The position numbers were made by a program, and so were the translations under genes. Below the pieces are notes generated by a model. That model made no database searches, was not told where the DNA came from, and was given only the letters and a program-made list of their open reading frames with translations. From contig OU342630.1 of assembly GCA_910589415.1 (NCBI GenBank), positions 73,776,186-73,840,185 on the forward strand: a DNA stretch of 64,000 nt, read 5' to 3'. This DNA is from Malachius bipustulatus. Its lineage: Eukaryota; Arthropoda; Insecta; Coleoptera; Melyridae. Each line of letters opens with the position of its first letter. Position 1 is the first letter of the stretch. Shown in pieces: positions 9,765 through 60,500 of this stretch.

Positions 9765-11464
9765 TATATATATATTTATATATATATTTATATATATATT
9801 TCTCCAAAATCGCGAAATTTCGATTTTAAAAACGCTCCTGTGGCTTTATCTTTCAAGATTAGTGAATGAAATTTTGGATTCTTGCAAATTTTTGGAATGA
9901 CGTTGGATTTTCGTTGAAAAAATTTCCAAAAGTCCCATCACTTCTACAGGGTGTCCCTTCAAAATTCCAGACATCCGGTTTTTGTCACCTCATTTCAGGT
10001 CGCAGTTTTCAATCTAGGAGACTGAAATTTTTGTGGAAGTAAGATATCCACAAGGAGTGGTCTGGTATTGCACTTGAGCAAAATCGATGTAGCCGTTTCC
10101 AAATGGCGGCCATTTTAATTTTTGGAAAAAGGACTATTTTTTGAACCCCTGTATAAGCTAGATAGAAAAAGAGTTTTATATCAAATTCACAATATTGGAA
10201 GTAAATGACTTGAAATTTAATTTCATGCAACAAAATTTGCATTTTTTTTATTAATAAGCCAGTGGCGTGGGTAGGAAAAGGGTAAAAATGGCTAAATTTC
10301 TCCAACAATTTATGAGCACATTTTTGAAGTAATTAAACTGAAATTTTTACAGTAGACAACTACACTAATAGACTTCAACCCTTGAGAATTTCAAAAAGTA
10401 AATAAGAAAAATGGCGGAGATATTCGATTTTTTTTACATGATGTTTTTTTTAAATTAATTTCTCTAAATTTTTAAAAACGCTCCTGTAGCTTCATCTTTC
10501 AAGATTAATGAACGAAATTTTTTACTCTTATAAACCTTAGGGCTGACGTTTGATTTTCGTAAAAAACATTTTCCTAGAGTTGTGTTACTTCTACAGGATG
10601 TCCCTCCGAATTTCAGAAAAAAAAAAGTCCGTGAGGCACGGTTTCTGGTCGAAGTTTTCAATCTAGAGCGCTGAAATTTTTTTGGTAGTAAGATACCCTC
10701 AAGTAGTCGTCTGGTACTGTATTTGAGTAAAATAGGTAAAGACATTCCAAAATGGCGGCCTTTTCAATTTTTGGAAAATGGTTAGCTTTTGAACCCCTAA
10801 ATAGGCAAGATCAAAAACCTTTAAACAAAATTAACAAGATTGGAATAAACTTATTTGAAATTTGAGCTAATGCAATACAATTTGCATCATTTCTATTAAT
10901 AAGCCAGAGGCGTGGGTAGGAAAAGGGTAAAAATGTCTACATTTCTATAAACATTCGTGAGCTTATTTTTGAAGGAATAGAACGGAAATTTTGATAGTAG
11001 ACAACTATACTAATAGCATTTAACCTTCAAAAATTTCAAGAAGCAAATATAAAAATGGCGGAGATATATTCGAATATTTTTAAATGATGTTTATTCCTCT
11101 AAAATTTCAAACTTTCGGTTTTCAAAACTCTCCTTTCAGTTTTTTTCCGAATTTATTAAAGGTAGTGTAAAAAATAGTATTTTTCAAGTAAAGTTAGCCA
11201 GTGGCGGGCATAGGAAAAGGGACAAAATTGTAAAATTTTGCCAATTTTTTTGATTTTTAAATTTAAAAATTCATTCTAAGGCACGTGTTGAAACGAAATG
11301 AAATGAAATTATCACAGAAAATTTTTCACATTAAAGCACTACGCTAACATGACATGACTATGGAAAATTTCAGAAAGCCAATAATTTAAAAAGCGGTGAA
11401 AATATTCATAATTGAATCGCATAAAAATACACTATTTCTGCGATTGATGCGCAAGAAGGTTTTT
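9765..11464 (+). repeat. 1.7 kb dispersed repeat made of about 640 bp monomers, copy 1
   Basis: Begins in a (TA)n/(TATATATT)n tract (9765-9802). Monomer landmarks recur: AACGCTCCTG at 9831 and again at 10477 (period 646), each followed by the TTCAAGATTA region, an internal CTACAGGGTGTCCC or CTACAGGATGTCCC, then an AAAATGGCGGCC stretch and CAGTGGCGTGGGTAGGAAAA or a close variant. A third, diverged and shortened monomer runs 11095-11464. The same structure is present in reverse complement at 55290-56957. Open frames inside (e.g. 10009-10308, 10464-10745 minus) are not protein-like. Confidence 0.8.
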
Positions 11465-16871: not shown

Positions 16872-18246
16872 GTTAGTGTTTTGTAAAATTTAATTTTAAT
16901 TTTTTTATGCAGTGTGATAGTGTGAAGTGCATTTTAAACATATAATAATAGTAAATATGTAGTTTCTGCAATGCATCTTGGATTATTTACCGTACTACAT
17001 GCTCCTAAAATATGACGATATCCTTCTTTATTTTTATCTAAATTTTAAAATCATGCAAAAGTGTTAAAAATTTATTAAATATTGGATTAAGGGGTTATAA
17101 ATCTCTTTTAGATTGGCTTAAAAATAACTTAAATATATCAAAAAATTGTTAATTTTTATTTCACCTAATTTTCGTTTTTTATTGGAAATATACCTACTTA
17201 TGGATTTTATAATAATTATATTTTGAATTTTAGTAGAAATATTTTAATTACATCAATTCTCTCCCAAAAACATCTTTCTTAAAATAAATATGATGATTAA
17301 AAAAATTCAAGGATGAAATTTTTCAATGAAATCAACTATTGAGGAAAAAATAATTTTTTGAGTAGATACTTTCGCTTACAATCGATTAAAAATATAGTGC
17401 TACAAGTGTGAAATAATTTGGAAACATTTTTGGAAATATTATTTTTTATTTTTTTTTTATAATTTTATTTTAATAATTTCATAATAATGTTTTCAAATGC
17501 GGTTATTATAAATTGGGGTTGTTAAAAAAAATGTTTGAATTTAACTATATGACATCATAGTCTTTTATAGCTTCCAGAAAAATAGTTCAAAAAATTTTCC
17601 AAATTAAAAAAATACTTAAAAGTATTTATGATACAGCCCTAGGATGTTAAACGAATTTAAATGTTAATACTGATGTATTAAGATGATAATAAGAGAATGT
17701 TAAAACAGATAAATAAAACTTACATTCTATAAAATAGATCAAAGTTTCTTTTTTATCAGAAACATCTCAATTAATAGCATAAAAAAAAATTAATCAAAAA
17801 AAAATTGTAAGAAGTAATCAAGTAATATTCAAATGAACATGAAACGATTTATTAAATCGAAAAAATATTTGTTGAAGATCAAAAAAAAATCAAATCGAAA
17901 TTAGTTTTTCAAATGTTAATTTTTGAGTACCTCATTCAGTTTATGTTTAATTAGATAAGAGAAAATTACAAATGTGCTCATAAAGATAGTACATGACTGA
18001 TGAAGTCGTTTAATTATCTTTAAAACATAAAGTCATTGTTTGGTTGCACTTCACACAATAATAAGACTTCACGCTATTTAACATTGCAATAAAATAGACC
18101 ACAATAGTAATTGTCATTCGCATAACAATTGTTGTCCATTCTTTAAATGAAAGAGAAAGAGCAACTAGTTTCAAGTAGACAGTTCCTTAGAACAACTGCA
18201 TTATAAAAAAAAACTCCTATTAAAATAATTCTATTCTCTTTTACAG
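16872..18246 (+). other. Predicted intron 1 (1375 bp)
   Basis: The donor is TTG|GTTAGT; the acceptor is a pyrimidine-rich TTCTCTTTTACAG ending at 18246. The intron is strongly AT-rich and has no open frame of interest. The join is phase 0. Confidence 0.65.
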
Positions 18247-19488
18247 GTAGCTTTCGGATGTTTGCTACAATTTTCACCCTCCGAAAGCAACCCAGTCAGT
18301 CTATCGCGGAATAAAAGATCCTTTCATGAGCCAGAAGGGTACTGGAGTAAAAAATTGACCTGGAAAACAGAATGGGTCAAGGTGTGGAAGACCCATAAAA
18401 AGCTAGTCTGGAAACCTGAGTGGAAGAAATCTCAGGTGCCGGTTTGGAAAGAAATCCAGGTCCCTATTTGGAAAGAGATTCAAGTACCCGATTGGAAAAC
18501 AATAACCAAACCAATCTGGAAGGAGACTCAAGTACCTGCTTGGAAGGAAATTCAAGTACCTGATTGGAAAGAAGTTCAAGTTCCAGCATGGAAAGAGATC
18601 AAAGTTCCAGATTGGATAGAAGTCAAAGTACCAGCCTGGAAGGAAATCCAGGTGCCAGACTGGAAAGAAATTCAAGTTCCAGACTGGGTAGAAGTTAAGG
18701 TACCTGACTGGAAAGAGATTCAGGTGCCCGACTGGAAAGAAATACAAGTCCCAGATTGGAAGACAATCTGGAAACCAGTCTGGAAAGAAATTCAAGTTCC
18801 CGCTTGGAAGGAAATTCAAGTACCCGACTACAAGAAAATCTGGGTGCCACAATGGGTCAAGGAAGGAATTCCTGGAGAACACTATCTGGGTAAAGACCAT
18901 CACGGCAACGAATACACTGCACATGACTTATGGAAAAAGAAGCTCATCTGGAAACCAGAATGGAAGAAAACGTGGAGAACAGAAAAGAAACAGATATGGG
19001 TCCCCCAGAAGAAACTAGAATGGGTTCCGGAGAAGAAACAAATCTGGAGGACAGAAAAGAAACAAATTTGGAGAACAGAAAAACAGCAGATTTGGAGAAC
19101 AGAAAAGAAACAAATCTGGAGAACAGAAAAGAAACAAATTTGGAGAACCGAGAAGCAGCAAATTTGGAAATCAGAAAAGAAACAAATCTGGAGGACGGAG
19201 AAGAAACAGTACTGGATCACAAAGAAAGAACAAATCTGGAGAACAGAGAAGAAACAAATCTGGGTCCCCAAGAAGGTGCTGATTTGGAAACAGGAAAAAG
19301 TACAAATATGGAGAACAGAGAAGAAACAAGAATGGGTTACCCACAAGAAACAGGTGTGGAAGGACGTCTGGAAGAAAGTGTGGGTACCAGTATGGAAGTC
19401 TATACAAGTACCAGCGTGGAAGAAGGTATCTGTGCCTGTGTGGACTAAGGTCTGGGTGAAAGTTCATCACCACCACGGATGGGACTGA
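18247..19488 (+). CDS. Exon 2: secreted tryptophan-repeat protein
   Basis: With exon 1 this gives a 420-residue protein; I do not recognise its exact function. Residues 1 to about 17 form a signal peptide. RNKR (28-31) is a furin-type processing site. Residues about 69-210 hold an 8-residue repeat of WKEIQVPD type (variants WKEIQVPA, WVEVKVPD, WIEVKVPA). A non-repetitive linker (about 211-240) contains GIPGEHYLGKDHHGNEY. Residues about 242-382 hold a second 8-residue repeat, IWRTEKKQ. The tail returns to WKxxxVPVW units and ends HHHHGWD. Trp is about 53 of 420 residues, Lys is also very abundant, and there is no Cys after the signal peptide. Alternating polar and nonpolar positions suggest extended beta structure, so a structural extracellular (cuticle, eggshell or silk-like) role is a fair inference. 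Starting at 18262, as a naive frame finder would, uses a TTG and loses the signal peptide. Codon use is GC-richer than the neighbourhood. Open frames on both strands inside are repeat shadows. Confidence 0.9.
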   Translation, partial: VAFGCLLQFSPSESNPVSLSRNKRSFHEPEGYWSKKLTWKTEWVKVWKTHKKLVWKPEWKKSQVPVWKEIQVPIWKEIQVPDWKTITKPIWKETQVPAWKEIQVPDWKEVQVPAWKEIKVPDWIEVKVPAWKEIQVPDWKEIQVPDWVEVKVPDWKEIQVPDWKEIQVPDWKTIWKPVWKEIQVPAWKEIQVPDYKKIWVPQWVKEGIPGEHYLGKDHHGNEYTAHDLWKKKLIWKPEWKKTWRTEKKQIWVPQKKLEWVPEKKQIWRTEKKQIWRTEKQQIWRTEKKQIWRTEKKQIWRTEKQQIWKSEKKQIWRTEKKQYWITKKEQIWRTEKKQIWVPKKVLIWKQEKVQIWRTEKKQEWVTHKKQVWKDVWKKVWVPVWKSIQVPAWKKVSVPVWTKVWVKVHHHHGWD

Positions 19489-39278: not shown

Positions 39279-41260
39279 TGCCACAGTTAGGACCGCCCTG
39301 TATGAGCTGACAGAAAAGATTCAGGACACTCTGGAGTACAAGGAAACGGCCATTTGCGCCTTTCTGGACATAGAAGGAGCATTCGACAACACCTCTTGCG
39401 ATGCTGTCAAGAAAGCCCTAACTAAAAAAGGCATAAACAGTACAACATCCCATTGGATTCAACAAATGCTGTCCACAAGAATAATAATTGGAACCAAAGT
39501 GGGCGATGACACCATCCAGGTGAAAACAACAAAAGGATGCCCACAAGGAGGGGTGTTATCCCCCCTCCTATGAAGCCTGGTAGTAGACGAGCTCCTCGGG
39601 TTACTCACCGAGAACGGCATTACCTGCATCGGGTATACCGATGACATCGTCATCATCGCCAGAGGAAAATTTGAAGGAACACTCTGCGACATAGTACAGA
39701 GGGGGTTAAAGATAACCTTGAAATGGTGTCAGGAAATAGGACTCAACATCAGTCCTACAAAAACTACACTGATACCATTCACAAGAAAAAACAAGCTTCC
39801 AAACCTCAAAACCATCGACTTAAATGGAGTCGAGTTAGAATGGAAGGAAGAAGTAAAATATCTGGGAATAACACTGGATAAGAAGCTAATGTGGAACAAG
39901 CACTTAAGTGCAACAGTAAGTAAGGCCACATCCGTACTCGTGGTGTGCAGGAGAATGGCGGGGAATGCATGGGGTTGTAACCCATCCATTTTACGCTGGA
40001 TGTACACCATGCTAGTGAGACCCATCATCACATACGGAGCGGTCGTCTGGTACAAGAGGACCAAGCTAATAACAGCGAGGAAAACACTCCAGAAGATCCA
40101 GAGACTTGCATGCCTCTGCATCACAGGAGCAATGAGAACATGCCCAACAGCAGCGTTGGAAGTAATTCTAGATCTCACACCACTGCACTTAGTGATTGAG
40201 AGAAGTGCCGCAGAGGCTCAACTCAGAATGTCAAGAATGGGGATCAGGGGGGGACTACGGACCGAGGGGAATCAACCCCTGAACATCTGTAAAAACCTCC
40301 TGATAATGCCAAAAGACAAAACTGTCAAGAAATTCAGCTTCAAGAGAAACTTCATCATGGAACTGTCTACGAAAGAAGAATGGAGCAACACATTCATTCA
40401 CACTTTCAAAAAAGGTACAATAAGATGGTACACAGACGGCTCAAAGGCCACCGAGGGAACTGGGGCAGGAGTATATGGGCCAGGCACCAACTACTCCGAG
40501 CCGATGGGAACATCCCCAAGCATACTTCAAGCGGAACTGTACGCAATAGAAGTATGCGCCCAAATAAACCTCGACAGAAACTATAAAAATAGGGAAATAG
40601 CAATACTGACAGACAGTCAAGCAGCCATAAAGACGCTGAGCTCTCCTATCATCAGCTCAAAAATGGCATGGAACTGCCTACAAAAACTCAATAAACTAGG
40701 CAGAGAGAACAAAATTCACCTCAAATGGATACCAGGACACACTAGGATTGAGGGAAACGAACGTGCCCACTCATTGGCAAGAAAAGGAGCATCGACGCCC
40801 TTTATAGGACCAGAACCATTCTGTAGCCTTGAAGACACGTTTTTCAAGGCAGAACTTCGGAAGGAAGAAGAAAAACTGAGAGAAATCCATTGGAATAACC
40901 TCTCAGGATTGAGACAATCCAAGGAGCTCCTCGGGAACTTTAACCGAGAAAGGTCAAGGAAACTCCTGACCATCAACAAAGGAAGTCTCAGAATACTAAC
41001 AGGATTCCTAACAGGTCATTGCAAGCTCAATGAACACCTGAGGAAACTTGGTACTTATAGAAAAAGATGGCGTTTGCAGACTCTGCAGGGAAGAAAACGA
41101 GACGCCTCGTCACCTATTGATGAACTGCGAAGCCCTAGAACGTGAAAGAAACGATGTTCTGGGCCAACACCAGCTCAACGGGGGGGCTTTGCCCGGCCTT
41201 GATCCCCTTCAAATCCTGAAATTCCTAAGGGAAGCGGAGTTGGAGAGGCTGCTTCAATGA
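39279..41260 (+). pseudogene. ORF2 remnant: reverse transcriptase, RNase H, CCHC tail
   Basis: In frame from 39279: AFLDIEGAFDN (RT motif A), CPQGGVLSPLL, GYTDDIVIIA (motif C, YTDD catalytic pair intact), EVKYLGITLD (thumb-side motif), then RNase H: IRWYTDGSK, LQAELYAIE, ILTDSQAA and GNERAHSLAR. Downstream comes C-x2-C-x(n)-H-x4-C (CRLCREENETPRHLLMNCEA). Three lesions are visible: TGA at 39571-39573 in place of the expected Trp after SPLL; His where RNase H normally has its last Asp (GNERAH for GNERAD, one base, in the CAC codon at about 40769); and a one-base frameshift near 41045-41050 that moves the zinc-knuckle to another frame (41048-41260). The longest intact piece is 39718-41145. The element is dead. 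Other frames here are shadows. Confidence 0.85.
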
Positions 41261-45990: not shown

Positions 45991-46005
45991 TTTTTTTTTT
46001 ATTCA

Positions 46006-46419
46006 TACAGGGTGGCCCAGCGAAAAGGTACCAGGCCTGATAACTTGAAAACTGAAGATGTACGCGAAAAACGCCGAAACAGGTCGATTTTGTTATCAAA
46101 GTAGGCATATTTTCGTGACAAATTTAACCACCCAAATTCACCCCCTTGGCAGGGGTAGCTACAGGGTGGCCCAAAAAAATGTTATCGTGTTGTAAAGAGA
46201 ATTCAAGTAGCTTTCAAATGATGTATCACTCAATAGCTGTTCCCTATGATGATAACCAAAGGGATAGCTACCCCTGCCAAGGGGGTGAACTTGGGTAGTT
46301 AAATTTGTCACGAAAATATGTCCCCCTCGCTAACAAAATCCACCTGTTTCGGCGTTTTTCGGGTACATCTTCAGTTTTTAAGTTATTAGGCCCGGTACCT
46401 TTTCGCTGGGCCACCTGTA
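46006..46419. mobile_element. Palindromic MITE, 414 bp
   Basis: Left end TACAGGGTGGCCCAGCGAAA, right end TTTCGCTGGGCCACCTGTA (one C lost from CACCCTG). The arms are about 160 bp, through CCCCCTTGGCAGGGGTAGCT / AGCTACCCCTGCCAAGGGGG. A second internal CTACAGGGTGGCCCA lies at 46161. Confidence 0.88.
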
Positions 46420-47415
46420 TAAAAGAGTAGAAAAAGCACAGGTAGCATATTAGATTCGCTATTATGGCCATTATTCACTTTATGATGACATTTTTTGATG
46501 ATACTTTATGATGACTCGCTAAAGCTCATGGCATTATCATCATCTCGTGGATAATGGCTTCATTATCGCTCATATAATATTATATTATTAATTAATACCT
46601 AAATCACTTTCAACAATAATAGTATATTTTTTCCAGCTCTCACTGTAACGTGATAAATAGATTTACAAACAGGTGACTCTGTAAGTGTAAGGGTACAGTT
46701 TTTCTTGAACTTTAAATCATTAATCACATTGTAAGCGTGAAACATCAGAATATAAATAAACAGTTTAATTTTCTTTTACTCGTATTACCTATTTGCACTT
46801 CATACTATTTCTGAGCACTTTTTATTTTACTTCGTCGTGTTTTCAAGAACAACTTAACTGCTATACAGGATGTCCCTAAATACCAGATACATAAGAAAAG
46901 AGGTAAACCTTTGGCTTATTTTATGCCTAAAAGTTCATATAAACATTGGGTCCCCAACTGCTTCGTTACTGATCTACAGGGTGCTAAAATTAGAAACAAA
47001 ATTCTTCTTTGTCTATTCCATTGTTTTTGACATATTTAGCTCTAATTTGGAATGCAGCAGGCTACGCTCCAGGGCTTACTTCATTTGGCATGCCAAATTG
47101 TTGTGATAATCTACAAGGAGATTATGTATTCAGGAGTAGGTATGCCCTAATTTCTCACCGTGAATTTTTTTTCAGTGCCGCTGGTGAATTCTAAAATATA
47201 AAATGAGTCTTCTATTTTGTTTCAAACTTTTTGTTTTTTTGTAGTTATTTTGTATAATATGTGACCGTTATCGAGCAAGAAAATTAAAATTTATTTCCTG
47301 TAATTCGCTAGACGATATTGAAATTTATTAATCGCAACTTGTGTTTCATTACTATGTTCATAAATTAAAGCTTTAAGTTGTAATCTGTCATGTTTAAAAG
47401 GGTTTTAATACTCGC

Positions 47416-55250: not shown

Positions 55251-55289
55251 GTATAAGTATTTTTGATAAAAATAGATCAGAATATATTA

Positions 55290-56957
55290 AAAACCTTCTT
55301 GCGCATCAATCGCATAAATAGTGTATTTTTAAGCGATCCAATTTATAAATATTTTCACCGCTTTTTAAATTGGCTTTCTGAAAATTTCCCTAGTCAGGTC
55401 ATATTAGTGTAGTGGTTAACTGTGAAAATTGCATTTCACTTCGTTTGAAAACGTGCCTTAGAATGGATTTTTAAATTTAACAAAACCAAAATAAATGGTA
55501 AAACTGAACAATTTTGCCCCTTTTCCTTTGCCCGCGACTGGCTGACTTTACCTAAAAAATACTATTTTTTACACTACCTTCAATAGAACTGAAAAAGTGA
55601 AAAGGGAGCTTTGAAAACTGAAAATTGGAAATTTTAGAGGAATAAACATAATTTAAAAATATTCGAATATCTCCGCCATTTTTCTTATTTGCTTCTTGAA
55701 AATTTTCAGAATTAAGGGTTATTAGTATTTATAGTTATCTATTGGAAAAATTTCAGTTCGATTCGTACAAAAATAGAAAAATAGAATAAACGGCTATAGA
55801 AATTTAGCCTTTTTTACCCTTTTCCTACCCATGCCACTGGCTTAATAATAAAAAAATGCAAATTTTATTGCAATAACTCAAATTTCAATAACTATTCTTC
55901 CAATAATGCTAATTTTGCTTAAAAGTTTTTGTTTCTAACTTGCTTATTTAGAGGTTCAAAATCTATCAATTTTTCCTAAAATTTAAAAGGCAGCCATTTT
56001 GGAACGGCTATTCCGATTTTACTCAAGACCGACTACTTGCAGTTATATTACTACAAAAAAAATTTCAGCCCCCTAAATTGAAAACTGCGACCAGAAACCG
56101 TGCCTCATGACCGGTTTTTTTTTGGAAATTTGGAGGGACACCCTGTAAAAGTAACAAAACTTTAGGAAAATTATTTTTACGAAAATCAAACGTCATCTCT
56201 AAGTTTCACAAGAGTAAAAAATTTCGTTCATTAATCTTGAAAGGTGAAGCTACAGGAGCGTTTTTAAAATTTTAGAGAAATAAACATCATGTAAAAAAAA
56301 TTCAAATAACTCCGCCATTTTTGTTATTTACTTCTTGAAATTTTTAAGGGCTGGAGGCTATTAGTATAGTTGCGTACTGTGAAAATTTCAATTTAATTCC
56401 TTCAAAAATGTGCTCATAAATTGTTAGAGAAATTTAGCGATTTTTACCCTTTTCCTACCCACGCCACTGGCTTATTAATAAAAGTAATGCAAATTTTATA
56501 ACATTAAATCAAATTTCAATTAATTTTCCTCCAATCATGTTGATTTAGTTTCAAAGTTATTTTTCCATCTTACTCATACAGGGGTTCAAAAAAAAGCAAT
56601 TTTTCCAAAAATTCAAGTGGCCGCCATTTTGAAACGGCTCGGCCGATTTTGCTCAAGTACAATACCAGACCAGTTCTTATATATATCTTACTCCCACAAA
56701 AATTTCAGTCCCCTAGATTGAAAACTGCGACCTGAAATGAGATGACAAAAACGGGATATGGGGAATTTTGAAAGGACACCCTGTAGAAGTAACGCGACTT
56801 TAGGAATTTTTTTCAACGAAAATCTAACGTCGTTCCAAGGCTTTACAAGGATCCAAAACTTCATTCACTAATCTTGAAAGATAAAGCTACAGGAGCGTTT
56901 TTAAAATCGAAATTTCGCGATTTTGGAGAAATATATAAATATATATATAAATATATA
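55290..56957 (-). repeat. 1.7 kb dispersed repeat of about 640 bp monomers, copy 2
   Basis: Reverse complement of 9765-11464. CAGGAGCGTT occurs at 56253 and 56890 (period 637), with CACCCTGTAGAAGT and ACCCACGCCACTGGCTTATT landmarks. The third monomer is diverged at 55290-55630. It ends in the same TA-rich tract (56926-56957) as copy 1. The two copies differ by many substitutions, so both are old. Confidence 0.8.
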
Positions 56958-57037
56958 TTCAAAATAAATTTAACGGGCATATCGCTCTAACCTAGGGCTT
57001 CCTGAGGCAGACCTGACACACAGAGCCATCCAGTCAT

Positions 57038-57097
57038 CTCGAAGCTGCAGACAACGTTGTTTCGGTCTCTTAGACCTCATCAGTACAGCACATCGAG
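57038..57097 (-). ncRNA. Hammerhead ribozyme, type I (minus strand)
   Basis: Exact reverse complement of the 60-nt ribozyme at 57606-57665, so every conserved position is retained: TCATCAG and TTTC on the plus strand are the core in antisense. RNA made from the minus strand would self-cleave here after the GUC triplet. The loop and stem bases are identical in both copies. Confidence 0.82.
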
Positions 57098-57605
57098 AAA
57101 TAACTAGAGGATGCATGCCAGGCCAGCACAGGAAGCCAACTATATGAATAAAGAGGTGACACGGAACTCCGTGACCTCAATAGTTGGTTGCCATCTACCG
57201 ACGGAGACAAGAACTAAACGGCAGCACGCTACCAGCTTTGTGTCCATCGGGAATAGGCAGCCCACAGTTCGGGGCATTACCATCCGTCGGGCGGTGCTGG
57301 TTAGCTACCGATAGATGTCTCTCGCCAAAGCCCATGGTTATTACAATAATAATGATGATGTTAATGAGCGCAAAGAATTAAAAATTCAAAATAAATTTAA
57401 CGGGCATATCGCTCTAACCTAGGGCTTCCTGAGGCAGATTCCCGGGCTATTCCCGATGGACACAAAGCTGGTAGCGTGCTGCCGTTTAGTTCTTGTCTCC
57501 GTCGGTAGATGGCAACCAACTATTGAGGTCACGGAGTTCCGTGTCACCTCTGTATTCATATAGTTGGCTTCCTGTGCTGGCCTGGCATGCATCCTCTAGT
57601 TATTT

Positions 57606-57665
57606 CTCGATGTGCTGTACTGATGAGGTCTAAGAGACCGAAACAACGTTGTCTGCAGCTTCGAG
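57606..57665 (+). ncRNA. Hammerhead ribozyme, type I (plus strand)
   Basis: A self-cleaving RNA motif. In order: stem I 5' strand CTCGA (57606-57610), internal loop TGT, GCTGTA (57614-57619); core CTGATGA (57620-57626); stem II GGTCT-AAG-AGACC (57627-57639), a perfect 5-bp stem with a 3-nt loop; core GAAA (57640-57643); short stem III C-A / T-G around ACGT (57644-57651); GTC cleavage triplet (57651-57653), cutting after C57653; stem I 3' strand TGCAGC (57654-57659), T, TCGAG (57661-57665). Stem I pairs 6 bp (one G-U) plus 5 bp across an asymmetric internal loop, as in natural fast hammerheads. The very short stem III is like those of metazoan PLE-linked hammerheads, which may work best as dimers. 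All 11 core bases are the consensus ones. Activity is predicted, not shown. Confidence 0.87.
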
Positions 57666-57809
57666 ATGACTGGATGGCTCTGTGTGTCAGGTCTGCCTCA
57701 GGAAGCCCTAGGTTAGAGCGATATGCCCGTTAAATTTATTTTGAATTTTTAATTCTTTGCGCTCATTAACATCATCATTATTATAAATATATATATATAT
57801 ATATATATA

Positions 57810-58310
57810 GATCTTTATATCCTTCCTGAGCCAGTCGAAATTTCATACCATCCTGAACCATGGCTTAAATAAGCAGTTGGAGCCCGTCTCTCGGCGTATA
57901 TTTATTTGTCATTATTCGAATATCATATTTTTGAACATATACATCACGAAAAAAGAAATTTATTTTTTATTATTTTATACAAAAAAAACCGTACCATCCT
58001 GAACCATCATACTTGTGCTGAGCTGAACCACTGTATATATTTTAGATGGTTCATACAATTCTGAACCACGTCTTTTCTCACAACTGGCTATTCACTTTTT
58101 TTGTAAAACGCAGGTTCATGTCGCTCGAAAAACTACTTACCCCATTTTAAAAATTAAAAAAGGTAAATATTTACATCCACGTATCCTAAGCTTCATCAAT
58201 TTTTTCGGGATCGAGGAGCGAAATAGGGATGCTGGGTGGGTAAGAAGCTAAAAACTACTATTGCAAACTAATATATTAATAATGATAATTGTTGGCCATG
58301 GTATACCCAA
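57810..58310. repeat. Stretch with repeated ACCATCCTGAACCAT motif
   Basis: CATACCATCCTGAACCATGG (57846), GTACCATCCTGAACCATCAT (57991), then GATGGTTCATACAATTCTGA with ACCAC (58044) are near copies, the last inverted and loosely matching. No terminal structure or gene seen. Confidence 0.4.
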
Positions 58311-58367
58311 AAAATGATAAATGAAACAAGATTGTAGGTCAATGGGTATAAATTTATTTATAATAGT

Positions 58368-58409
58368 CTGTCAACTAGTTTCGGGCAAGGTCACCCATCT
58401 TCAGGACAG
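58368..58409 (-). ncRNA. Hammerhead-like motif (minus strand)
   Basis: Exact reverse complement of 58989-59030; see that entry. Both arms of the palindrome carry it, so either strand could give the RNA. Confidence 0.5.
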
Positions 58410-58988
58410 TTGTCAGCTTTACAGATCCCCAAAATTCCACTCTAGGGCGAGAATGATAATAAAATAGCAAAAATTTTTCCACTAAGTAAGGTTACAACAC
58501 GTGGGGAAGATATAATGTGGACAAAAAACTCTCAAACTCTCAGTTTTTGAATTAAAAGATTTTTCCAAAGTGGATTAATCGCATTAAAAGTTGAAGACTT
58601 ACATTACAAATGTTTGAATTTACAAATTATATAACTATAAAGGCAAGTTAAACGGCAGAATGTCGTGAAGCGACATTCTCCGGCGGGTGTTCAAGAACGA
58701 CTCTTGAACACCCGCCGGAGAATGTCGCTTCACGACATTCTGCCGTTTAACTTGCCTTTATAGTTATATAATTTGTAAATTCAAACATTTGTAATGTAAG
58801 TCTTCAACTTTTAATGCGATTAATCCACTTTGGAAAAATCTTTTAATTCAAAAACTGAGAGTTTGAGAGTTTTTTGTCCACATTATATCTTCCCCACGTG
58901 TTGTAACCTTACTTAGTGGAAAAATTTTTGCTATTTTATTATCATTCTCGCCCTAGAGTGGAATTTTGGGGATCTGTAAAGCTGACAA

Positions 58989-59030
58989 CTGTCCTGAAGA
59001 TGGGTGACCTTGCCCGAAACTAGTTGACAG
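58989..59030 (+). ncRNA. Hammerhead-like motif (plus strand)
   Basis: Stem I CTGTC / GACAG (58989-58993 with 59026-59030, 5 bp); core CTGAAGA (58994-59000, fits CUGANGA with A7); one extra T (59001); stem II GGG-TGACCTTG-CCC (59002-59015); core GAAA (59016-59019); two-base stem III C-T-A-G (59020-59023); GTT cleavage triplet ending at 59025. It fits a minimal hammerhead except for the extra T between A9 and stem II and the weak stems. It could be a divergent PLE-type ribozyme or a dead relative. Confidence 0.5.
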
Positions 59031-59084
59031 ACTATTATAAATAAATTTATACCCATTGACCTACAATCTTGTTTCATTTAATAT

Positions 59085-60500
59085 ATTAAGGTCACAACTA
59101 AGGCCTCTTTGACTATATTTCTATTTTTTTCTTCATTTTCAGGGCAAGGAATATCTTCGAGATTAACAGTAGCACGATTATTATTTTGAATTTTGCATTT
59201 ATTTTTCATTTGAATTCCAAAAAGCGTGACATTAATCCCTGTATTCTGGATGCGATATGAGAAAGCGGATATAATGCAGGTCCTGCTCCGTAGGCTTCGA
59301 AGCAGTTCGCATTGTCGTCAAGTTGTTACTTCCGAGACTCGGCGTATAGTTATTCGCAATTCTCGCCATGACCGTACTCTGAAAACCTATTTTTAGTGCC
59401 GTTTTTTTTTTTGGCTAACCATGCATTTGCAAAGCAAATGAATACCTTCCTGGTGTTACTATAGATATATTCTCCACCCCTAAAATAGATATAAATAAAG
59501 GAGCACAAACCATCGAGTTTGGAACTTAATTAGCACATAATAAGCAGATAATTCTGATGCAGTTCATTTTTAATATTCCCGGAGTGGGAGGGGGGGGGGG
59601 GCGGGAGTGCAGCTCAACGCAGCTAACAAACTGAACTATCTGAACTCAAAAAGTGTTTCCCAACACGGCTCATTTGAAATTGTTTTTTCAAAGAAAGTGT
59701 TCTAACCTGACCAGAACCTGACCGGTCAGATCATTGACGGGTTAAATATCTTTCCTTTAAAACAATATTATCTAAGTAGACCATATATGCAGTTACATAC
59801 TCGTATAAAATAATACGCCAAAATTAATGCGGCGGTTTTTTGATTTAAATAATTTTATTGCTCTGAGACGTTTGTAACTGACATTAGAAGTAAGAGGAAA
59901 TTTAAGATATTCTGGTCACTGGGTTTTTAATGGCTTCTAATAAAATTTGGTGACCATTGTTCAACTAAATAAAATATGTTATGAATACAATGAGAATTCT
60001 TATTTTGATGTTTTGTTTAATAAATTTAATGGAATTTTAGGGCGCATTTTAAAAATATAATTCAACAATCTGATAGGGTGACTAAATAGAGCAAAGTAAA
60101 TAACAAACAGATTCATAGTTTTAAATCTTCAGAAATACCAATATGTAATATGTACCTAATAGCATCAAGAGGCAGAGGGTAGGTATGAGGATGCCACTAT
60201 TGCCACTAGCCAACTAAAAGGAAAGCAATAAATTAATCCCGGGAGCTGACAGCTATTGATCATAAAATACCACCGTTGTTCCTCTAACAGAAGTAGTTTA
60301 CAAGATCACTTGTAGTACTAGAACTAGACATTGAAAACACTTACCCCCTATATGTTTTTTAATTTTTTGCATGTGAGGTGTGGCTTGACGTCGAGCTACA
60401 CCCCCCCCACCAACCAAATTTCACCGAAACGAGTTTTAGCATAATAATGTGCTCCAAGATTTTTTCAAAATGATTTTGCTCTAACGTAAAAACTAAAAAA
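59085..60500. other. AT-rich stretch with GC-richer patch
   Basis: 59275-59390 is GC-richer (GCAGGTCCTGCTCCGTAGGC) but has no frame or partner. Homopolymers: ten or more G at about 59590 and C at about 60399. No gene recognised. Confidence 0.4.

Follow-up and report, generated by a model that had tools for sequence, protein, structure and literature searches.

Among the closest described systems are the metazoan non-LTR retrozymes (Cervera and de la Pena 2020, PMC7229834). Their criteria, as given in the accessible text of that source, include a lack of protein coding, the absence of LTR, PBS and PPT, and target duplications of more than 4 bp, and the same text goes no further than to call Penelope-type elements (PLEs) a strong candidate for their mover, based on common features and co-occurrence. 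The PLEs themselves form the second point of reference. In rotifers their pLTRs are arranged head-to-head, with a 31-bp tail on one of them, according to the accessible parts of PMC3846280. A PLE protein from Anolis acts on both strands, which it cuts and extends; it has a preference for AT-rich DNA and is modelled as a dimer. In vitro no difference in start site was seen between the strands, hammerhead mutants leave insertion unchanged, and the main substrate is unprocessed RNA; the PLE tail of 30-40 bp is said to equal the interval between two reverse-transcription start sites (PMC11167929).

How does a locus from Malachius bipustulatus compare with these systems? In the window, which is the whole analysed stretch of 64,000 nucleotides, we find a mirror-image element with one hammerhead sequence in each arm. 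We consider it likely that its 427-nt unit is a non-coding retrozyme, and that head-to-head arrays of this unit arise when an AT-rich site is cut and each of its 3' ends primes reverse transcription on a one-unit circular RNA, probably through a Penelope-type reverse transcriptase-endonuclease. The initial annotation had proposed a complete type-I hammerhead on the plus strand, and its core letters, three stems and GTC triplet are all found, together with a second copy:

57605-57666, plus strand: type-I hammerhead of the plus arm, from the sequence, a sub-gathering Rfam HH9 match and a descriptor; cleavage predicted after 57653
57605-57610 and 57661-57666, plus strand: outer stem I, TCTCGA with TCGAGA, from the sequence
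57614-57619 and 57654-57659, plus strand: inner stem I, GCTGTA with TGCAGC, from the sequence
57620-57626, plus strand: core CTGATGA, from the sequence
57627-57639, plus strand: stem II, GGTCT AAG AGACC, from the sequence
57640-57643, plus strand: core GAAA, from the sequence
Between GAAA and GTC, plus strand: stem III, ACA with TGT, loop ACGT, from the sequence
57651-57653, plus strand: cleavage triplet GTC, from the sequence
57037-57098, minus strand: identical second hammerhead, in the inverted arm, from Rfam HH9 and the descriptor; minus-strand cleavage predicted after 57050

The cut predicted after 57653, where the initial annotation had also placed it, follows from the GTC triplet at 57651-57653. 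A covariance-model check, suggested along with the annotation and meant to refute it if neither strand gave a hit, does not refute it: in a permissive Rfam search of 55500-59500 the Hammerhead_HH9 model matches both strands, at 57602-57675 (plus) and 57028-57101 (minus), but with 25.1 bits each (E 0.0043) both stay below the gathering score of 52, and no Rfam family reaches its gathering score anywhere in the window. A descriptor asking for the core, a stem I of at least 4 bp, a stem II of at least 3 and a stem III of at least 2, which was written post hoc with the hit already seen, finds two places in the window, both of them the hammerhead copies, and four in 466 dinucleotide-shuffled windows. 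The written-out hammerhead fold has -18.6 kcal/mol, and the unconstrained minimum is another fold with -20.4. Since stem III sits within the 10-nt self-complementary ACAACGUUGU, cleavage as a dimer would suit this ribozyme. A scan of viral contigs with the hammerhead pattern gave 0 matches.

A second subfamily (L047 8050-9901, beside L045) provides an independent view of the ribozyme. Its unit of 422 nt, also arranged head-to-head, is identical in 364 of 429 aligned columns (85%), and the longest run unchanged between the two, 107 nt, spans the whole hammerhead while the rest diverges. On the strength of this run and the shuffled windows we reject an accidental hammerhead, as had been argued from the letters. 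When the unit is folded as a circle, both partners differ between the subfamilies in four of the predicted pairs (none or one with the partners slid) and 18 pairs are broken; in this comparison of two sequences the changed pairs weakly favour the predicted circle fold.

Both hammerheads lie within 56957-57784, which self-comparison identifies as a mirror-image element built of the 427-nt unit. Counting unit position 1 as the base after the predicted cut, its parts are the following:

56931-56958, no strand: left TA-rich target flank, the terminus of a repeat also present at 9768-11464
56957-57438, minus strand: minus arm, one full 427-nt unit and 55 nt of direct repeat, from BLAST to the unit and self-comparison
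57439-57446, no strand: head-to-head junction TTCCCGGG, filler or microhomology, including the palindrome CCCGGG
57447-57784, plus strand: plus arm of 338 nt, with its inner end at unit position 221 and its outer end at 131
57747-57784, plus strand: the 'tail', unit positions 94-131, present in the plus arm only and recurring in the outer ends of 31 of 32 loci
57782-57820, no strand: right TA-rich target flank, from the sequence

The unit length follows from the minus arm, in which a stretch of 55 bases is found again, equally oriented, 427 nt further on. This arm ends on the outside at unit position 93, without the tail, and on the inside at 39, and it equals the plus arm at 299 of 300 common positions. 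TA runs at the flanks keep the target duplication from being fixed. The unit has a GC content of 47.8%, and as a circle it has a minimum free energy of -149.3 kcal/mol, compared with -119.6 +/- 5.7 in 100 shuffles (z -5.3). No open reading frame of at least 80 aa occurs in the mirror-image element, which hence carries no reverse transcriptase and GIY-YIG frame of that size. The repeat at 9768-11464 and 55289-56958 consists of internal tandem units of about 640 bp and terminates in TA repeats; many retrozyme insertions sit in TA runs and have flanking sequence similar to it.

While the initial annotation was right about the identity of the hammerhead and its non-chance nature, it had missed that an identical copy lies on the minus strand, that the two form a mirror-image element built of a 427-nt unit, and that relatives occur elsewhere in the genome. 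Its suggestion of possible small circular RNAs from this locus appears less likely than it supposed: there is a single complete hammerhead per strand, so that no unit could be released by two cuts from one transcript, and each hammerhead has its antisense within the same transcript, which makes the window locus a less likely source of circles. Tandem arrays elsewhere in the genome, with up to 28 units per arm, are plausible circle sources.

The element shares many traits with metazoan non-LTR retrozymes as they are described in the accessible text of PMC7229834: short tandem repeats with a type-I hammerhead, a GC content below 50%, strongly self-paired RNA and the presence of PLEs in the same genome. 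Its weak stem III, with a two-pair stem and a palindromic tetraloop, is like that reported there for one axolotl family. The 427-nt unit is slightly above the RNAs of about 170-400 nt reported there and inside the range of the 150-450 bp repeats. Head-to-head order and two fixed outer ends are not mentioned for metazoan retrozymes in the accessible part of that source, and self-cleaved linear and circular RNAs are described there from tissue, whereas for the present element they are predicted. With plant LTR retrozymes (accessible text of PMC4918200) it shares a non-coding nature, a hammerhead and a circular RNA intermediate, the latter being predicted here; the plant elements differ in having type III hammerheads, LTRs with PBS and PPT, and 4-bp target duplications, as far as described in the available portions of PMC7229834 and PMC7761336.

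The likeness to PLEs lies in the architecture. Inverted repeats in head-to-head order of which one side bears a tail of 30-40 nt, seen here in 31 of the 32 loci where both ends are visible, AT-rich targets, tandem copies and a hammerhead motif upstream of the reverse-transcription starts are all PLE traits according to PMC11167929 and the accessible text of PMC3846280. Unlike PLEs, the unit contains no reverse transcriptase or endonuclease frame, and its arms reach up to 28 monomer laps; judged by eye, stem II is preceded by an unpaired base in the three hammerhead-like motifs seen in the PLE stretches read (L054, L055, L057), but not in the retrozyme. Because it lacks a reverse transcriptase-endonuclease frame, we file the element as a variant of the animal retrozymes that works like a PLE insertion, and not as a PLE itself. 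In the literature covered, with few subscription papers and including the accessible parts of PMC4918200, PMC11722881, PMC7761336 and PMC7229834, we found no earlier description of head-to-head retrozyme arrays.

To what extent is the window element typical of its family? A search of the genome (544 Mb, 52 contigs) with a 381-base query gave at least 398 matches to the unit, which is a lower bound, and a 127-base query gave 41. We read 36 loci, namely the window and every other locus among the matches listed by the two queries. Within this set 33 loci are head-to-head, three are one-armed (L012, L015, L031) and none is tail-to-tail, and on the head-to-head count we reject a plain one-way tandem satellite. 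Arms measure 0.37 to 28.2 units, and the longest locus has 28.16 and 28.23. Both outer ends are seen in 32 two-armed loci, the plus arm of L050+51 extending past the stretch analysed, and in 31 of these 32, among the matches listed, one falls at unit positions 127-137 (around 131) and the other at 81-99 (around 95). Within the unit these fixed end points are about 36 nt apart, and the end with the tail lies on the left in 14 of the 31 loci from the matches listed and on the right in 17. This step resembles the PLE 'tail'. The exception, L029 (C13 45447500-45453000), has symmetric outer ends (136/136). With flanks that are palindromic too, L029 may have been inserted into a palindrome or may represent a true inversion at the DNA level.

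Inner ends are scattered, with loose clusters near 40 and 215 and position 8 as the one nearest to the cut. At the junctions the arms overlap by up to 11 bases or are separated by up to 27 bases of filler; L018+19 has a small nested inversion instead. TA runs flank both sides in 31 of the 36 loci among the matches listed. Target duplications could be read as 12 bp in L014 (TAAAATAAGATA) and as about 5 bp with microhomology in L024; the remaining loci lie wholly or partly in TA runs, which make the duplication unreadable.

Variants within the arrays carry information on the templates. Relative to the window unit, 44 substitutions are fixed at their locus, and 43 of these are present in 80% or more of the units of each arm. 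A further 70 are partial; every one of them is confined to a single arm, and 0 are shared by the two. The count covers 315 units; L029, one-armed loci, indels and unit positions 78-100 were left out, and 228T was set aside in L023, whose entire arms are distinct. Two partial substitutions of L029 are common to both arms, as is, ambiguously, one T insertion within the AT run of L037. A single haplotype occupies both arms of every insertion except L023, whose minus arm has 228T and a T insertion and whose plus arm has 210T in 11 of 11 units, so that two templates likely met at one cut. All-or-none variants are the expected outcome of a single circular monomer copied lap upon lap, a test that is weaker if most partial variants post-date insertion.

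Arm lengths within a locus are correlated as well (Spearman 0.71). The two arms agree within one unit in 23 of 32 pairs, compared with a permutation mean of 9.4 and with 0 of 20,000 permutations reaching 23. Ten of 31 loci are near-palindromes, in which the arms differ by 6-58 nt and the tail arm is the longer one (permutation mean 1.0, highest 6); one of them has 12 kb per arm. In seven of these ten, each arm holds unit sequence that is absent from the other, in six of them at least 13 nt at the inner end. Near-equal arms that nevertheless hold private sequence lead us to infer that the two copyings were coupled on one circle. A one-lap window fits 20 of the 31 loci (permutation mean 5.8) when set post hoc to -60 to 391 nt, the model's own window being -36 to 391. 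The one-lap rule is a tendency and not a law, and the 11 loci outside may stem from two circles or from a later change in unit number.

These observations can be combined into the following scheme. Transcripts of the arrays would cut themselves at their hammerheads, and a host ligase would close the monomers into RNA circles. A PLE enzyme, plausibly as a dimer, would then cut both strands of AT-rich DNA, and each 3' end of the target would start at its own site on the circle, one near 131 and the other near 95. Reverse transcription would run round the circle for up to 28 laps, until the two antisense tails are united head-to-head by an end-joining reaction that uses microhomology or leaves a few filler bases. 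With one circle for both ends the copies would tend to keep no more than a lap apart, while with two circles, as may be the case in L023, they need not. The boldest form of this scheme has two coupled Penelope-type reverse transcriptases, one per 3' end, following each other round the same ribozyme-made circle without overtaking and writing palindromic satellite arrays of up to 28 laps in one event; we put it forward tentatively, at a little short of an even chance. Several observations count against the general scheme. The Anolis in-vitro data do not predict one start of each kind on a ribozyme-made 427-nt circle, 11 of the 31 loci break the one-lap rule, and L029 does not fit, as its ends are symmetric, its flanks palindromic and two of its partial variants common to the arms.

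Could the arrays have arisen in another way? If transcription of an existing array supplied a long linear multimer as the template, in place of a circle, and both target ends primed on it and ran to its 5' end, the common end would give near-equal arms without any coupling, and the preference of PLE insertion for unprocessed RNA in vitro (PMC11167929) would be accommodated. Unit variants of the source array should then appear in both arms, which 0 of 70 partial substitutions do, and in the near-palindromes the inner ends are spread over the unit and correspond neither to one start nor to the ribozyme cut, so that we regard a linear template as unlikely. A second possibility, which we judge quite unlikely, is that one arm was made first and the other is its DNA copy, the second strand being synthesised by snap-back or from a hairpin, so that a palindrome would form around a small loop. 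Self-priming on an antisense template has been suggested for PLE inverted repeats (accessible text of PMC3846280), and both the ten near-palindromes, up to 12 kb per arm, and the palindromic flanks and mirrored partial variants of L029 would suit it. The different haplotypes in the arms of L023 are hard to square with such copying, the unmirrored partial substitutions speak against it, weakly if most arose after insertion, and, given the private unit sequence in each arm of seven of ten near-palindromes, we reject it as the general mechanism.

The remaining alternatives concern the enzyme and the data. Arrays could be two-ended and yet be the work of a LINE through L1-like twin priming: LINEs or PLEs are both left possible in the accessible text of PMC7229834, the genome holds LINE-type open reading frames (39574-41145, RVT_1 and RNase H), and the polarity of the window element also fits. 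The fixed pairing of outer ends at a distance of 36 nt, the AT-rich targets and the common head-to-head rule are traits of PLEs, and they make a LINE very unlikely; for the window alone, L1-type twin priming is a weak explanation. Fold-back reads, finally, are a known source of false palindromes, and assembly or library artefacts around an ordinary satellite could in this way yield mirror-image arrays, just as sub-threshold Rfam scores could belong to a chance hammerhead; the palindromic flanks of L029 point in this direction. The left and right flanks of the loci differ, however, the asymmetric ends recur in 31 of 32 loci, variants are not mirrored between arms, and the ribozyme is unchanged between two diverged subfamilies, all of which renders artefact or chance extremely improbable.

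If true, the boldest reading, with coupled reverse transcriptases, would identify the machinery that moves animal retrozymes as well as a new birth route of satellite DNA. Dozens of insertions resemble PLEs in their end points, polarity and targets, and the genome has many PLE-type open reading frames, which makes the mover of animal retrozymes directly testable by biochemistry. The arm-length tendency, the all-or-none variants and L023 bear on the extension of both strands by PLEs in vivo and on circles as templates, and they offer a way in which mirror-image satellite arrays could originate in a single step.

PLE-type frames are indeed abundant in this genome. A profile search with PF01541 (GIY-YIG) gave 150 matches with a score, and many of these fall within tandemly arrayed open reading frames of 823-855 aa. 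Adjacent matches of the same score within 10 kb are oriented minus-plus in 19 cases and plus-minus in none (23 and 2 at any score), where equal E-values were taken as one PLE family. In an array at 60.8 Mb of C2 two rows (E 1.0e-5 and 1.8e-5) were labelled like their neighbours, and two lone rows received labels of their own; these four relabelled rows affect plus-plus pairs only, or none. On C11 of G000, an 84 kb contig, the GIY-YIG matches listed form one PLE array, six minus followed by 18 plus, with a period of about 3327 bp, that takes up most of the contig. From the architecture, the retrozyme unit may well share the PLE machinery. A comparison of the unit with five PLE inter-ORF stretches found no significant similarity outside the expected start-site regions (best E 0.019), which counts against this link.

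A PLE-derived insertion also occurs in the window itself, 0.5 kb from the retrozyme element:

58280-59078, no strand: PLE-derived head-to-head palindrome, a separate insertion

It has a tail of about 40 nt on the left arm only, an 11-bp duplication (TAATATATTAA) at 58269-58279 and 59079-59089, and hammerhead-like CTGAAGA...CGAAAC motifs from 58404 (minus) and 58994 (plus). Over 266 and 261 nt it is 99.2% identical to PLE inter-ORF DNA (L056, C6), and the family behind it has an 823-aa GIY-YIG frame elsewhere in the genome. An Rfam mir-248 match at 58651-58747 was rejected as a microRNA; it is the centre of this palindrome.

Other parts of the window contain further repeats. An inverted pair (91%) at 46005-46420 has CTGAAGATG...CGAAAC motifs that recall degenerate hammerheads. 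At 39574-41145 the LINE-type fragment with RVT_1 and RNase H contains a 523-aa open frame. For a reverse transcriptase fragment of the window the best named matches are insect proteins (56% Episyrphus, 53% Anthonomus). A 419-aa open frame at 18229-19488 (plus) consists of tandem repeats based on 24 bp, with VPDWKEIQ- and RTEKKQIW-like motifs.
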